IMG/VR virus record: IMGVR_UViG_3300025117_000102
Location: 1 to 47,543 of that record
Strand: one strand, 5' to 3'
Source of the DNA: a virus
DNA: 47,543 nucleotides
Below, piece by piece: positions 11,777 through 47,476 of this stretch. A program made the translations under genes and the position numbers. Each line of letters opens with the position of its first letter. The stretch's first letter is position 1. The notes below the pieces were generated by a model. That model worked only from the letters and a program-made list of their open reading frames with translations, had not been told where the DNA came from and ran no database searches.

Positions 11777-12052
11777 ATGGTCGATATTTTCAAAAAACAT
11801 CTTCCAAAAAAGGGCCTAAATGAATCTGACGATTGCACTGAATGTGGTCATGCTTACGCTGAACACAAAGTTTATCCAGGTGGAAAGTGCGCCAAGTGCC
11901 ATAACCCGAAAAAAGGTTTCGGTTGCAACGGATTCAATCTCGGCATGACAGTGGAATATGACGATGAGCCGGATGAAGTGACTGGAAAGCCGTGGAAGGT
12001 GCGTATCTTACCAGGAAAATTACTCAAAAATGGAAAACAGCCTAAAAATTGA
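11777..12052 (+). CDS. Zinc-ribbon protein (91 aa)
   Basis: A 91-aa protein with two Cys pairs, CTEC near residues 20-23 (followed by a His, GHAYAEH) and CAKC near residues 37-40, plus FGCNGF. It probably binds one zinc. Starts AGTATG and overlaps the fibre gene by 22 bases. Function unknown; it may be a chaperone or assembly factor for the fibre made from the next gene. Confidence 0.7.
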   Translation: MVDIFKKHLPKKGLNESDDCTECGHAYAEHKVYPGGKCAKCHNPKKGFGCNGFNLGMTVEYDDEPDEVTGKPWKVRILPGKLLKNGKQPKN

Positions 12053-13727
12053 CTGTAGTGTATCGACCAGACGGCTGAGTCGGTACCTGATAAAGACAAG
12101 GGTCACAAAGTACACTCGCTCTCAAAAAGTCGAACGGGTGTCTTCTGAGTATTTCTTTCAATGGAAAAACGCTAGGAACGACTTACTCGGTCTAGTAACG
12201 CACCCGTTTCAAACCGCTCCAAGGGTCTCATTCGGACTTTCTGCCCTTCTCCTCGCCCTACTAGGCAATGAAGAGAAGGCCACTTTCGTCGCATTCGTCG
12301 GTGCATTGACTCTCGACAGTGCGACCGAGAGTGACGATACAGCGAGCTTCAATGTAACGGTTGCCTCAAACACCAACCGAATCATGTACATGGGATTCGG
12401 TCACTACCAGAGTGGCGACAACATTTCGGCTGCCTCATACAATAGTGATGCGCTTTCTGAAGTCAAGGCGCAAGCCGGTTCCTTCGGTGAGCGAGCTGGT
12501 ATTTGGGGACTTGTTGCTCCAGACACAGGTACTAACACCTTTTCTATCACAGGAAATGATTCATGGTCTGGATACGGAGTCGTTAGTATTTATGGTGCCG
12601 ATCAAAACCTTTCAACCAACACGGCCGGTGGGAGTGATGACACTTCTGTTGACCTCACAACTTCAGTAGATAATGCTTGGGTCATAGCCGCCATCGGAGC
12701 AGAGCCAGCCATCACCATGACCACCACGAGTGGAGTTGAGGACATGAACGAACAGGGTCAGTCATTCCAGAATGCAGAAATGCACCATGTGAACAAAGCG
12801 ACAGCCGGGACTCAATCGATGACATTTAGTCTCAGTTACGGTGCCCGTTCAAATATTGCTCTTTGTGAAGTGAAGCCAGCCGCCGCGGGCTCAACATCAC
12901 CATCCGTTTCTCCTTCCGTGTCACCTTCGATCAGCCCAAGTAGAAGCCCTAGTGTCTCTGTCTCTATTTCTCCATCGAGAAGCCCGTCCGTCTCACCTAG
13001 TGTCAGTCCGTCTCGGAGTCCGAGCGTTTCAGTTTCCGTAAGTCCAAGCCAGTCCCCGTCGGCTTCAATTTCTCCATCGGTTTCTCCTAGCGTTTCTGTC
13101 AGTGTTAGTCCTTCGGTAAGTCCATCCGTTTCCCCATCTGTTTCACCGTCTCAGTCACCGAGCGCAAGCGTTAGTCCATCAATCAGTCCGTCAGCTAGCC
13201 CGTCGGTATCGACTTCGCTCAGTCCTAGCGCTTCCCCAAGTGTTTCGGTTTCAGTGAGTCCCAGTGTAAGTCAGAGCCTTTCGCCATCCGCTAGCCCGTC
13301 AGTGAGCGTGAGTATTTCCCCAAGTGTTAGCCTAAGTATCTCTCCATCGGTCTCTCAATCAGCTTCGCCTAGCTCATCTACATCTCCATCCGTCAGCCCT
13401 TCAAGGAGCCCGAGTGCTTCACCGTCCGTCTCGAAATCGGCGTCCCCCAGCGTATCGGTTTCGGTTTCCCCGTCGGCATCTCCAAGCATTAGCCCAAGCG
13501 TTTCACCAAGTCAAAGCCCATCAGCATCAATCAGTCCGTCAATTTCACCAAGTGTTTCTGTGTCTTCAAGCCCGTCCGCTTCACCCTCTGTTTCCCCGAG
13601 TATTGCCGTCCCGATAAAACCGAATGTCAGAATCTTGAATCAAACAAGCGTAAGGGTTAGAATAGAAGCATATCCTTCCACACGGACACGAATTGTCTCC
13701 GTTAATCCGCGTGTAAGGGTAATATAA
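12030..13727 (+). CDS. Fibre-like virion protein with long Ser-Pro-Val repeat
   Basis: A 565-aa protein. The first ~290 residues form a beta-rich globular part (for example FVGALTLDS, VTVASNTNRIMYMGF, MTFSLSYGARS). Residues about 290-524 are a low-complexity stretch of SPSVSPS, SPSRSPS and SPSASPS units, followed by a short C-terminal cap (NVRILNQTSVRVRIEAYP). The repeat resembles a flexible mucin-like stalk with many Ser hydroxyls for O-linked sugars. It sits directly after the sugar module and before tail genes, and shares the repeat with the gene at 46568. The exact role is inferred. Confidence 0.75.
   Translation: MENSLKIDCSVSTRRLSRYLIKTRVTKYTRSQKVERVSSEYFFQWKNARNDLLGLVTHPFQTAPRVSFGLSALLLALLGNEEKATFVAFVGALTLDSATESDDTASFNVTVASNTNRIMYMGFGHYQSGDNISAASYNSDALSEVKAQAGSFGERAGIWGLVAPDTGTNTFSITGNDSWSGYGVVSIYGADQNLSTNTAGGSDDTSVDLTTSVDNAWVIAAIGAEPAITMTTTSGVEDMNEQGQSFQNAEMHHVNKATAGTQSMTFSLSYGARSNIALCEVKPAAAGSTSPSVSPSVSPSISPSRSPSVSVSISPSRSPSVSPSVSPSRSPSVSVSVSPSQSPSASISPSVSPSVSVSVSPSVSPSVSPSVSPSQSPSASVSPSISPSASPSVSTSLSPSASPSVSVSVSPSVSQSLSPSASPSVSVSISPSVSLSISPSVSQSASPSSSTSPSVSPSRSPSASPSVSKSASPSVSVSVSPSASPSISPSVSPSQSPSASISPSISPSVSVSSSPSASPSVSPSIAVPIKPNVRILNQTSVRVRIEAYPSTRTRIVSVNPRVRVI
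12897..13601 (+). repeat. Low-complexity SPSVS-coding repeat
   Basis: About 235 codons of Ser, Pro, Val with some Ala, Ile, Arg and Gln in a loose Ser-Pro-Ser-X period. Synonymous codons vary freely (tca, tcg, tct, tcc, agt, agc), so the repetition is maintained at the protein level rather than by recent DNA duplication. A second tract lies at 46990-47212. Confidence 0.9.
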
Positions 13728-45003: not shown

Positions 45004-45990
45004 ATGGCAGGAATTCTCGCAACAGCCTCCCTGAATGACTTCGTGAAGAACGCTGAAGTCATGTGGCGTGAGGGCTATGATCGAGTTCCGCTCGTCGCTC
45101 GTGCGCTGTACGATGTCCGTACAACCTCGACCAAGACCAGCGAACACTCTGATCTCTCCGGCTTCACCTTCGCCGAACGAAAAAATGAAGGTGGCAACTA
45201 CGCCATCGGAAACATCACTCAGGGCTATACGCTCAATCTGAGCCAACAGCGCATCGGTGTGATGAAGGCAATCACTTGGGAAATGCGCAAGTACGACAAG
45301 TACCGCGAAATCCAGAAGACTCTCAATAATCTGGGTATGGCGGCTTCTCATCGTATGGAGCTTGACCTGACTCACTTGTTCACTTTCGGTATGAGCGCTG
45401 CCTCGTACACGAACCGGAACGGTGAGACGATTGCTACAACCTCTGGTGACGGTCAGAATCTCTTCGATACCGACCACACTATCCGTGGCGGTTCCGGTAC
45501 CTACTCGAACCTCATCACTACGGAGTTCTCCCGTGACGGTCTCGAGGATGCGGAAACTCAGTTCACGACCTTCGTTGACAACTCGGGCAACAAGATTGTT
45601 CCGATGCCTGACACGATTGTCACGACCGACCATCCGGCTCTCGTGAACAATGTCAAGGAGTTCTTTAAGTCAAGCCAACAGCCTGACACTGCGAACAACG
45701 CCACGAATGTCTACACAGGGAAGTACAAGCACTTGGTGCTCCCGTACCTCGCTACTGACAATCAGGGTGCTCGCAACTCATCCATCGTGAACTACTGGAT
45801 GCTCGCTGATACCAAGAACACAGACGCCATCTGTGAAATCTCTGAAGAGCCACGCCTCGTCTCCCCGTCAGCGGGTGGGAACGGTGAGGACTTCATGACT
45901 GACGACTGGTACTTCAAGACCTCGGCAGCCTATGACTACGGTGTACTCGGGTATACCTGGATCGTTGGCTCGACTGGTGCGACCTCGTAA
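45004..45990 (+). CDS. Major capsid protein (HK97-like)
   Basis: A 328-aa protein. N-terminal helical arm (ATASLNDFVKNAEVMWREGY), a GFTFAERKNEGGNYAIGNIT E-loop-like region, a long helix (EIQKTLNNLGMAASHRMELD) and an A-domain with the IVPMPDTIVTTDHPALVNNV core. Follows the scaffold and decoration genes, as in HK97-fold phages. Should be the most abundant virion protein; start has C at -1 (tatcATG) and no Shine-Dalgarno. Confidence 0.86.
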   Translation: MAGILATASLNDFVKNAEVMWREGYDRVPLVARALYDVRTTSTKTSEHSDLSGFTFAERKNEGGNYAIGNITQGYTLNLSQQRIGVMKAITWEMRKYDKYREIQKTLNNLGMAASHRMELDLTHLFTFGMSAASYTNRNGETIATTSGDGQNLFDTDHTIRGGSGTYSNLITTEFSRDGLEDAETQFTTFVDNSGNKIVPMPDTIVTTDHPALVNNVKEFFKSSQQPDTANNATNVYTGKYKHLVLPYLATDNQGARNSSIVNYWMLADTKNTDAICEISEEPRLVSPSAGGNGEDFMTDDWYFKTSAAYDYGVLGYTWIVGSTGATS

Positions 45991-45999
45991 GTCCTAACT

Positions 46000-46062
46000 G
46001 GGGGCGGGGTTGACCTGAGTTGATTACTCAGAGGAACCCGAAAGGGCTATAGACCCGCCCCT
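46000..46062 (+). ncRNA. Three-helix leader RNA, copy 1
   Basis: P1 GGGGCGGG (46001-46008)/CCCGCCCC (46054-46061); P2 CTGAGT (46015-46020), loop TGATT, ACTCAG (46026-46031); P3 CCC-GAAA-GGG (46037-46046) with a GNRA loop. Unpaired conserved words are TTGAC before P2, AGGAA between P2 and P3, and CTATAGA after P3. The same fold with different bases occurs at 46496-46555. The gene starts nine bases after P1. Confidence 0.85.
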
Positions 46063-46070
46063 TCCAATCT

Positions 46071-46487
46071 ATGTCTAAAGTATCTGGAATGAGTGGTTTC
46101 TTCGTGAAACCAGCCATCCTCACAGCAGCCGAAACGCTGACCAGAAACAACTCTGGACGGACTCACTTCCTTGATAACGCCGCTGGATTTACCCTGACTC
46201 TCCCCGCTCCTCTCAAGGGACTGGAACTAGAGTTCATCGTAAAGACGGCCCCAACGACGAGTAATTATGTTATTACTACGCCATCGGGAACGATTATCCT
46301 GGGAGGTGTCTATACCAATGATGTTACCAATCCATCGGATTCAGACTTTGAAACAAGCGGAGTTGCAACAATCAATTTCGTGAAAAATGCCTCTCTTCGA
46401 GGGGATAGTATCAAACTCGTATCTGACGGGACCAACTGGTACGCTAAAGCGTTTACCGCTGTCTACGATGGCATTACTCTAGTCTAA
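46071..46487 (+). CDS. Beta-rich virion protein, paralogue 1 (138 aa)
   Basis: A 138-aa protein (LTAAETLTRNNSGRTHFLDN, AGFTLTLPAPLKGLELEFIV, NFVKNASLRGDSIKLVSDG), all beta. Paralogue of the N-terminal 140 residues of the next gene. In phages such GFTLTLP-type domains are found on decoration and fibre proteins. Lies directly after the capsid gene. Confidence 0.75.
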   Translation: MSKVSGMSGFFVKPAILTAAETLTRNNSGRTHFLDNAAGFTLTLPAPLKGLELEFIVKTAPTTSNYVITTPSGTIILGGVYTNDVTNPSDSDFETSGVATINFVKNASLRGDSIKLVSDGTNWYAKAFTAVYDGITLV

Positions 46488-46495
46488 CTAACTAA

Positions 46496-46555
46496 GTTCA
46501 GGATCGACTTCGGCTGATAACCGAAAGGAAACCGAAAGGGAATATATACCTGAAC
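46496..46555 (+). ncRNA. Three-helix leader RNA, copy 2
   Basis: P1 GTTCAGG (46496-46502)/CCTGAAC (46549-46555); P2 TTCGG (46509-46513), loop CTGATAA, CCGAA (46521-46525); P3 CC-GAAA-GG (46532-46539). Shared with copy 1: TCGAC before P2, TGAT in the P2 loop, AGGAA, CCGAAAGGG and TATA before P1'. P1 and P2 keep pairing although almost every base pair has changed. Confidence 0.85.
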
Positions 46556-46567
46556 TCGTAAATCAAT

Positions 46568-47215
46568 ATGTCTAAGCCAACGCAATTCAAGAGCAAGCTC
46601 GTCGAACCGAGGACGCTCGTTGCGGCTACTACGCTTACCTACGGAGACTCGGGGAAGACTCTTTTCCTCAACCTCGCGGGTGCGTTCACAGTCACGCTGC
46701 CTAAAGTCAAAGCCGGTCTGGAATTTGATTTCGTGGTGAAAACCGCTCCTTCAGGGGCAAATTACATTATCACGACTTCGGACAACAGCCCGCTCATGTA
46801 CGGACAGGTCTATACGACTGATGTGAACTCTGGGACTGACCCGGACTTCAATATCGTAGCTGCCACGCGGTTCAACTTCGTCGACGGGGTCGCTGTCGCT
46901 GGTGACAGTATGCGGATGATCTCAGACGGTACCTACTGGTACCTCAAAGGATTCTGTTCGGTGTACAACGCTGAAACACTCACCCTGTCTCAGTCAGTCT
47001 CGCCTTCAGTCTCCGTGTCTGTTTCTCCAAGTGCCTCGCCTTCGGTGTCTGTTTCTCGGAGTCCGTCGGCCTCGCCTTCGGTGTCGCCTTCGGTCAGCCC
47101 TTCAGTTTCCGTCTCTCGAAGTCCGTCCGTCTCGGTGTCTATCTCACCTTCTCGTTCGCCTTCGGTCTCGGTATCCATCAGCCCTTCGGTTTCTCGATCG
47201 GCTTCTCCATCGTAA
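46568..47215 (+). CDS. Beta-rich virion protein with SPSVS repeat tail, paralogue 2
   Basis: A 215-aa protein. Residues 1-140 are paralogous to the preceding gene (GKTLFLNLAGAFTVTLPKVK, MRMISDGTYWYLKGF). Residues about 141-215 are Ser-Pro-Val repeats (SPSVSVSVSPSASPSV-like), the same type as in the gene at 12030. The tail was presumably added to a capsid- or tail-surface domain. Many surface Ser could carry sugars from the adjacent module. Confidence 0.78.
   Translation: MSKPTQFKSKLVEPRTLVAATTLTYGDSGKTLFLNLAGAFTVTLPKVKAGLEFDFVVKTAPSGANYIITTSDNSPLMYGQVYTTDVNSGTDPDFNIVAATRFNFVDGVAVAGDSMRMISDGTYWYLKGFCSVYNAETLTLSQSVSPSVSVSVSPSASPSVSVSRSPSASPSVSPSVSPSVSVSRSPSVSVSISPSRSPSVSVSISPSVSRSASPS
46990..47212 (+). 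repeat. Low-complexity SPSVS-coding repeat, second tract
   Basis: About 75 codons of Ser-Pro-Val/Ala/Arg/Ile in the same style as 12897-13601, again with mixed synonymous codons. Only these two genes in the window have it. Confidence 0.88.
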
Positions 47216-47216
47216 A

Positions 47217-47250
47217 GAATGGGATTGGGGAGCCATTCACTTGGCTCCCC
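47217..47250 (+). terminator. Hairpin / terminator with alternative pairing
   Basis: GGGGAGCCA (47227-47235) pairs with TGGCTCCCC (47242-47250), followed by TTTC. GAATGG (47217-47222) can instead pair with CCATTC (47233-47238), which would consume part of the stem. The upstream stop is at 47215, so a terminating ribosome covers GAATGG. Confidence 0.7.
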
Positions 47251-47278
47251 TTTCGGGTAATTAATCTAACCTCTTCCT

Positions 47279-47476
47279 ATGGGTTCACCTGATTGGAGCC
47301 GTATACCATATGACAAACTCCCTGAGTGGAAACGTCAGGAGATGCTTGAAAAGATGAAGAAGAAAGTAGAGAAGTTAGAAGCCGCCAATGCTGCCACCGC
47401 TCTTAAATGCGATGTCTGTGGCAAAGAAGCCAAGAACGAAAAGGGCCTAAAGATTCATCAGTCTAAACATAAGTAA
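47279..47476 (+). CDS. C2H2 zinc-finger protein (65 aa)
   Basis: A 65-aa protein: helical N-terminal half (PEWKRQEMLEKMKKKVEKLE) and a classical C2H2 finger, Cys44, Cys47, His60, His64 (C-x2-C-x12-H-x3-H) with the hydrophobic Leu57. Such fingers are rare in phages. Placed between virion genes, it may organise a protein complex or bind DNA. Starts cctATG. Ends in TAAT-ATG with the next gene. The window-start copy has Ser for the second Cys. Confidence 0.8.
   Translation: MGSPDWSRIPYDKLPEWKRQEMLEKMKKKVEKLEAANAATALKCDVCGKEAKNEKGLKIHQSKHK

Follow-up and report, generated by a model that had tools for sequence, protein, structure and literature searches.

The window analysed here (the whole stretch of DNA, an entire IMG/VR virus record of 47,543 bases) contains two copies of a small structured RNA, each just ahead of one of two paralogous genes that follow the major capsid protein gene, and pattern and covariance-model searches have now identified at least eight further examples on other phage contigs. 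No entry in Rfam 15 covers the element, which is a new RNA family of a known kind (the structured phage leader or intercistronic RNA), and no description of it was found in the literature searched; its biochemical function is possibly new as well. It probably controls the making or the processing of the message for a capsid-surface protein, and the reading that we favour, with a probability of about 0.5, is that it is a cis-acting intercistronic leader which sets spike-gene expression from a shared late message. The features of the region are as follows.

45004-45990, + strand: gene for the major capsid protein, immediately before copy 1 (matches to phrog_371, major head protein, at E 2e-8 and to PF25209 Phage_capsid_4)
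46001-46061, + strand: element copy 1, whole (covariance model match of 80.6 bits; fold; pair counts)
46001-46008/46054-46061, + strand: copy 1, P1
46009-46014, + strand: copy 1, J12, GTTGAC
46015-46031, + strand: copy 1, P2
46032-46036, + strand: copy 1, J23, AGGAA
46037-46046, + strand: copy 1, P3, CCCGAAAGGG
46047-46053, + strand: copy 1, J31, CTATAGA
46071-46487, + strand: capsid-spike-like gene (138 aa) behind copy 1, with its start codon 9 nt past P1
46495-46556, + strand: element copy 2, whole (covariance model match of 75.4 bits; fold; pair counts)
46495-46502/46549-46556, + strand: copy 2, P1
46503-46508, + strand: copy 2, J12, ATCGAC
46509-46525, + strand: copy 2, P2
46526-46530, + strand: copy 2, J23, AGGAA
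46531-46540, + strand: copy 2, P3
46541-46548, + strand: copy 2, J31
46568-47215, + strand: paralogue (215 aa, SPSVSxS repeat at the C-terminus) behind copy 2, with its start codon 11 nt past P1

A preliminary description of this DNA had placed two three-helix RNAs at these sites, and both copies do share a three-way junction of P1, P2 and P3 as their common fold in MFE and centroid predictions. It had also held that nearly all base pairs of P1 and P2 had changed between the copies while pairing was retained. The first part was overstated, as both sides differ in four of eight P1 pairs and three of five P2 pairs (7/13), but the second holds, with no broken pair in the alignment. Of the words that it listed as conserved, TGAT sits in the P2 loop and has no counterpart outside the window, and CCGAAAGG is not family-wide, P3 being variable in L126 and L130 and absent or minimal in L168, L192 and L194. 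Folding energy alone is weak evidence for the window element: z is about -1.7, and for the two copies 11 and 12 of 200 shuffles equal or better the native fold. The case rests on covariation in relatives.

Eight confident members were found in eight other phage contigs, together with two weak ones without P3. Scanning viral contigs with a degenerate pattern yielded L013 and L014, which have the same fold and also lie behind a capsid gene; in the resulting alignment of four sequences (A4), 12 of 16 pairs show double changes, a level reached by none of 500 shuffles. Running a covariance model on the capsid relatives of L013 and L014 then gave L126, L123, L130, L168 and L124, and a rebuilt model added L193, so that the family comprises ten members including the two window copies. 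Across these ten, double changes occur in 15 of 16 pairs and 92% of cells are paired (0/500 shuffles reach this), and the covariation score is 0.876, against 0.245 for shuffled alignments (0/500) and 0.08-0.17 for slid ones. RNAalifold returns nearly the same structure, from an alignment that was fitted to the model and is thus not fully independent. Every match at E <= 1e-5 in approximately 600 kb is on the + strand and immediately precedes the gene that follows the capsid gene or, in the case of copy 2, the paralogue of that gene. The weak matches in L192 and L194 (13-15 bits, no P3) are in exactly the right place. A possible degenerate element, AATCC GTTGGA CACGT..ACGTG GTAAATATTA GGATT, lies at about 3955-4015 of L197 before an NFDIV gene, below covariance model detection.

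Other candidates were rejected. With exact and relaxed DNA patterns in viral contigs, L013 and L014 were the only true members, and all other matches failed the P1/P2 test; L012, L020, L060 and L090 (a Clostridia MAG, the sole match from genome contigs) are chance matches, with L020 and L090 apparently inside coding sequence. The blastn matches in Bacillus phages are promoter or ribosome-binding-site look-alikes and those in Salmonella phages are a tRNA-Ile arm. Among named phage isolates reached through relatives of the capsid or downstream proteins, including L199-L203, no member was found.

The consensus order is P1 - NU(U/C/A)GAC - P2 - AGGAA - P3 - N(U)AYAKA - P1', over about 60 nt. P1 (6-8 bp) is free in sequence, P2 has 4-7 bp and P3 usually 3 bp, whereas the core strands NU(U/C/A)GAC, AGGAA and UAYAKA (alignment A7) are conserved, with AGGAA kept in 10/10 members. 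P3 is present in nine of the ten covariance model members, minimal in L168 and absent from the weak L192 and L194. Its loop is often a GNRA tetraloop (GAAA, GCAA or GUAA); L126 has GUC-GCAA-GAC and L130 has GCC-GUAA-GGC, and such swaps mark the element as a + strand RNA. Within P1 and P2 there is no G.U among 153 pairs, a count that is suggestive only, as the stems were delimited by eye and terminal G.U pairs at hand-set ends were excluded; this absence is as compatible with a rigid fold or a catalyst as with a regulator.

The core also has the sequence layout of a k-junction, which has been described as G.A pairs next to a helix, a three-nt loop and a third helix in the other strand (PMC4005666; for the k-turn, see PMC5061560). 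GA occurs both before and after P2 in 11 of 12 members, L124 having UA. The loop before the first GA (GUU, AUC, UUU, CUU, UUA and others) has three nt in most members, only when the U.U apposition that tops P1 in many of them is counted as P1-stacked; L192 and L124 deviate. From this layout we infer a kinked geometry in which P1 would be the C helix, tandem sheared G.A pairs would extend P2 and P3 would leave from the strand opposite the loop. The likeness is at the level of sequence: compared with the standard motif the element adds the conserved UAYAKA strand and an extra A (AGGAA), and unlike the junction of the TPP riboswitch, for example, it is not part of a known riboswitch (PMC4005666, PMC5061560).

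That a functional RNA was duplicated together with a pair of virion genes is strongly supported, by the family-wide covariation, by 46% identity (E 2e-35) between the products of 46071-46487 and 46568-47215, and by a structural match. The AlphaFold model of the 46071-46487 protein (pLDDT 77.6) matches the capsid spike of Pseudomonas phage Pa223 (E 1.5e-5, prob 1.0); the product is thus predicted to resemble a phage capsid spike, which supports a virion role. In Rhizobium phage RHph_N2 the homologous gene also lies directly behind the major head gene, with a gap of only 12 nt and therefore no element. P1 ends 9, 11, 11, 17, 9, 15, 10, 32, 27 and 16-17 nt before the start codon (range 9-32), a tight spacing, while anything between a few nt and about 80 nt separates the element from the preceding stop codon. 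The capsid gene and the element of L126 have an HNH endonuclease gene (PF01844) between them, but the element still lies 9 nt before the downstream ATG. The unit is therefore the element plus its downstream gene, and the duplication in the window copied these two as one.

The downstream proteins themselves are diverse. The window pair and L123, L124 and L126 have domains of approximately 125-138 aa (125 aa in L123), L130 encodes 792 aa, and the proteins of L013 and L014 weakly match beta-helix tail-fibre profiles. Otherwise different products in L013, L014, L123, L124, L126, L130 and L197 share a short N-terminus, M.xT[NE]FDxV, which is common among element carriers and is perhaps a capsid anchor. 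Long SPSVSxS/SPSLSPS repeats recur in virion-region proteins (window 46568-47215 and 12030-13727; L011:6700-7836; L123, L124 and L126). G+C-rich simple hairpins without a clear T run, perhaps 3' stabilisers, stand behind several late genes, at 47215-47279 in the window and behind relatives' capsid genes (for example GGGGAGCC..GGCTCCCC). The element lies downstream of the hairpin behind the capsid gene, and antitermination of that hairpin was therefore rejected as a function.

As a leader, the element would act in cis ahead of a capsid-spike-type gene, inside a presumably polycistronic late message, with P1 and P2 enclosing the conserved core. Nearly all spacers lack a Shine-Dalgarno sequence. 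Matches precede 8 of 53 window genes and 0 of 47 genes in L123, L124, L126, L130, L168 and L193, compared with 13-24% of random positions, and only L014 among the carriers exceeds the random rate; its spacer has a modest purine-rich match (-5.3 kcal/mol). The folded module sits about where the Shine-Dalgarno helix would be in other phages and, alone or with a ribosome or host RNA-binding protein bound, could set the ratio of spike to capsid output. Folding of the members gave no consistent switch pairing that would occlude the start codon. Leader RNAs by which phages control the translation of late genes form a general class, and the element resembles them in being intercistronic and directly before a start codon, but it occurs in phages that do not use Shine-Dalgarno sequences above chance and has no sequence kinship with them. 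The preliminary description had suggested tuning of translation, a processing site or binding of a virion protein as possible roles.

This defined 60-nt module allows one to ask how a single message in Shine-Dalgarno-poor phages can yield capsid and capsid spike in balance, and whether phages use k-junction-like folds as leaders or cleaving RNAs. More speculatively, and rather against the odds, the element could be the first of a new class of small RNA devices in phages whose hosts do not depend on Shine-Dalgarno pairing, either a new self-cleaving ribozyme with a k-junction-like core or a structure that, instead of a Shine-Dalgarno helix, recruits or positions ribosomes on late virion genes.

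The best rival, although an unlikely one, is that the element is a self-cleaving ribozyme or a host RNase site at which the spike message is cut away from the abundant capsid message; the two window copies would then excise the gene at 46071-46487. It ranks first because hammerheads flank single genes in prophages, where transcript processing has been proposed (PMC3088659), and the element-gene-element order of the window is similar: in both cases a small three-way junction lies between phage or prophage genes, sometimes with one on each side of a gene. A compact junction with conserved unpaired core strands suits a catalyst, a cut would spare coding sequence as the element is always between genes, and no phage trans factor is common to the carriers. 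However, no Rfam ribozyme model matches, the hammerhead core CUGANGA/GAAA/UH is absent (the strands being NU(U/C/A)GAC, AGGAA and UAYAKA), no invariant scissile dinucleotide can be assigned, and the weak members without P3 would have to stay active. Less probable again is a protein-binding operator: the message would be repressed or protected by a host k-turn protein of the L7Ae type, or by the capsid or spike protein, bound to the element. Eleven of 12 members have the tandem G.A signature and k-turns bind L7Ae-family proteins (PMC5061560), which speaks for this idea, as does the association with capsid-spike-type genes. A virion-protein ligand is disfavoured, however, by the widely differing downstream proteins of L013/L014, L123 and L130 and by carriers' capsids that are as little as 20% identical. 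Furthermore, comparison of gene content in eight carriers and four non-carriers (fragmentary contigs) revealed no phage gene that tracks the element, and none beyond portal and capsid that the carriers share.

Least likely of all, and very improbable in our estimation, is a DNA-level element, such as a recombination or homing site or a cassette end with a folding single strand. The lack of G.U pairs, the frequent insertion of HNH and DUF559 endonuclease genes at this locus, a hotspot for them, and a sporadic distribution would suit such an element. The one-strand changes from GNRA to GNRA, the fixed orientation and the fixed closeness to the start codon argue against it, and there is no conserved recombination core because P1 is free in sequence. 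An integron attC site was also rejected: the R boxes (GTTRRRY / RYYYAAC) conserved at the base of its stem are not matched, and P1 is unconserved in A7.

A confident element is present in 8 of 80 capsid relatives, and presence and absence are split between close relatives (L011, with 59% capsid identity to the window; L086, with 50% to L014; the G013/G025 pair, with 68%). Most relatives, among them one with a capsid 68% identical to a carrier's, lack the element; it is thus dispensable, which counts against the leader reading. The family is well supported and tied to one genomic position in phages whose capsids can be as little as 20% identical.

Comparison with known RNAs bears out the earlier view that no riboswitch or ribozyme can be named. 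Rfam 15 gave no match at gathering level (window and 17 loci), and element-sized stretches at E<=10 gave none, or only irrelevant snoRNA and miRNA chance matches. A tRNA or tRNA-like identity was rejected (ARAGORN, 0 tRNAs in the window); the 22-nt identity to a phage tRNA-Ile anticodon arm is limited to P2 of copy 2 and its edges. The Mu-gpT-DE RNA is a motif found downstream of phage head genes. The element shares that position, but no Rfam 15 model matches it meaningfully at E 10.

Free-standing HNH and DUF559 endonuclease genes are inserted right behind the major capsid gene in L126 (4072-4905), L151 (4078-4353) and about 20 other capsid relatives. A second, distinct RNA was observed in relatives. 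It is an H-type pseudoknot, supported by covariation, that covers the start codon where a DUF559-like endonuclease gene lies behind the capsid gene, and it has no Rfam match where tested. Its loci are:

L145, L153, L154, L156, L157, L162, L163, L169, L171, L173, L174, L176, L181, L185: about 40-110 nt after the capsid stop

The loop (ATCTC, ATCGC, GTCTC or TTCTC) pairs with the codons after the ATG (GAGAT, GCGAT, GAGAC or GAGAA, respectively); 90.5% of cells are paired and 20 are double-change cells, which 0/500 shuffles reach.
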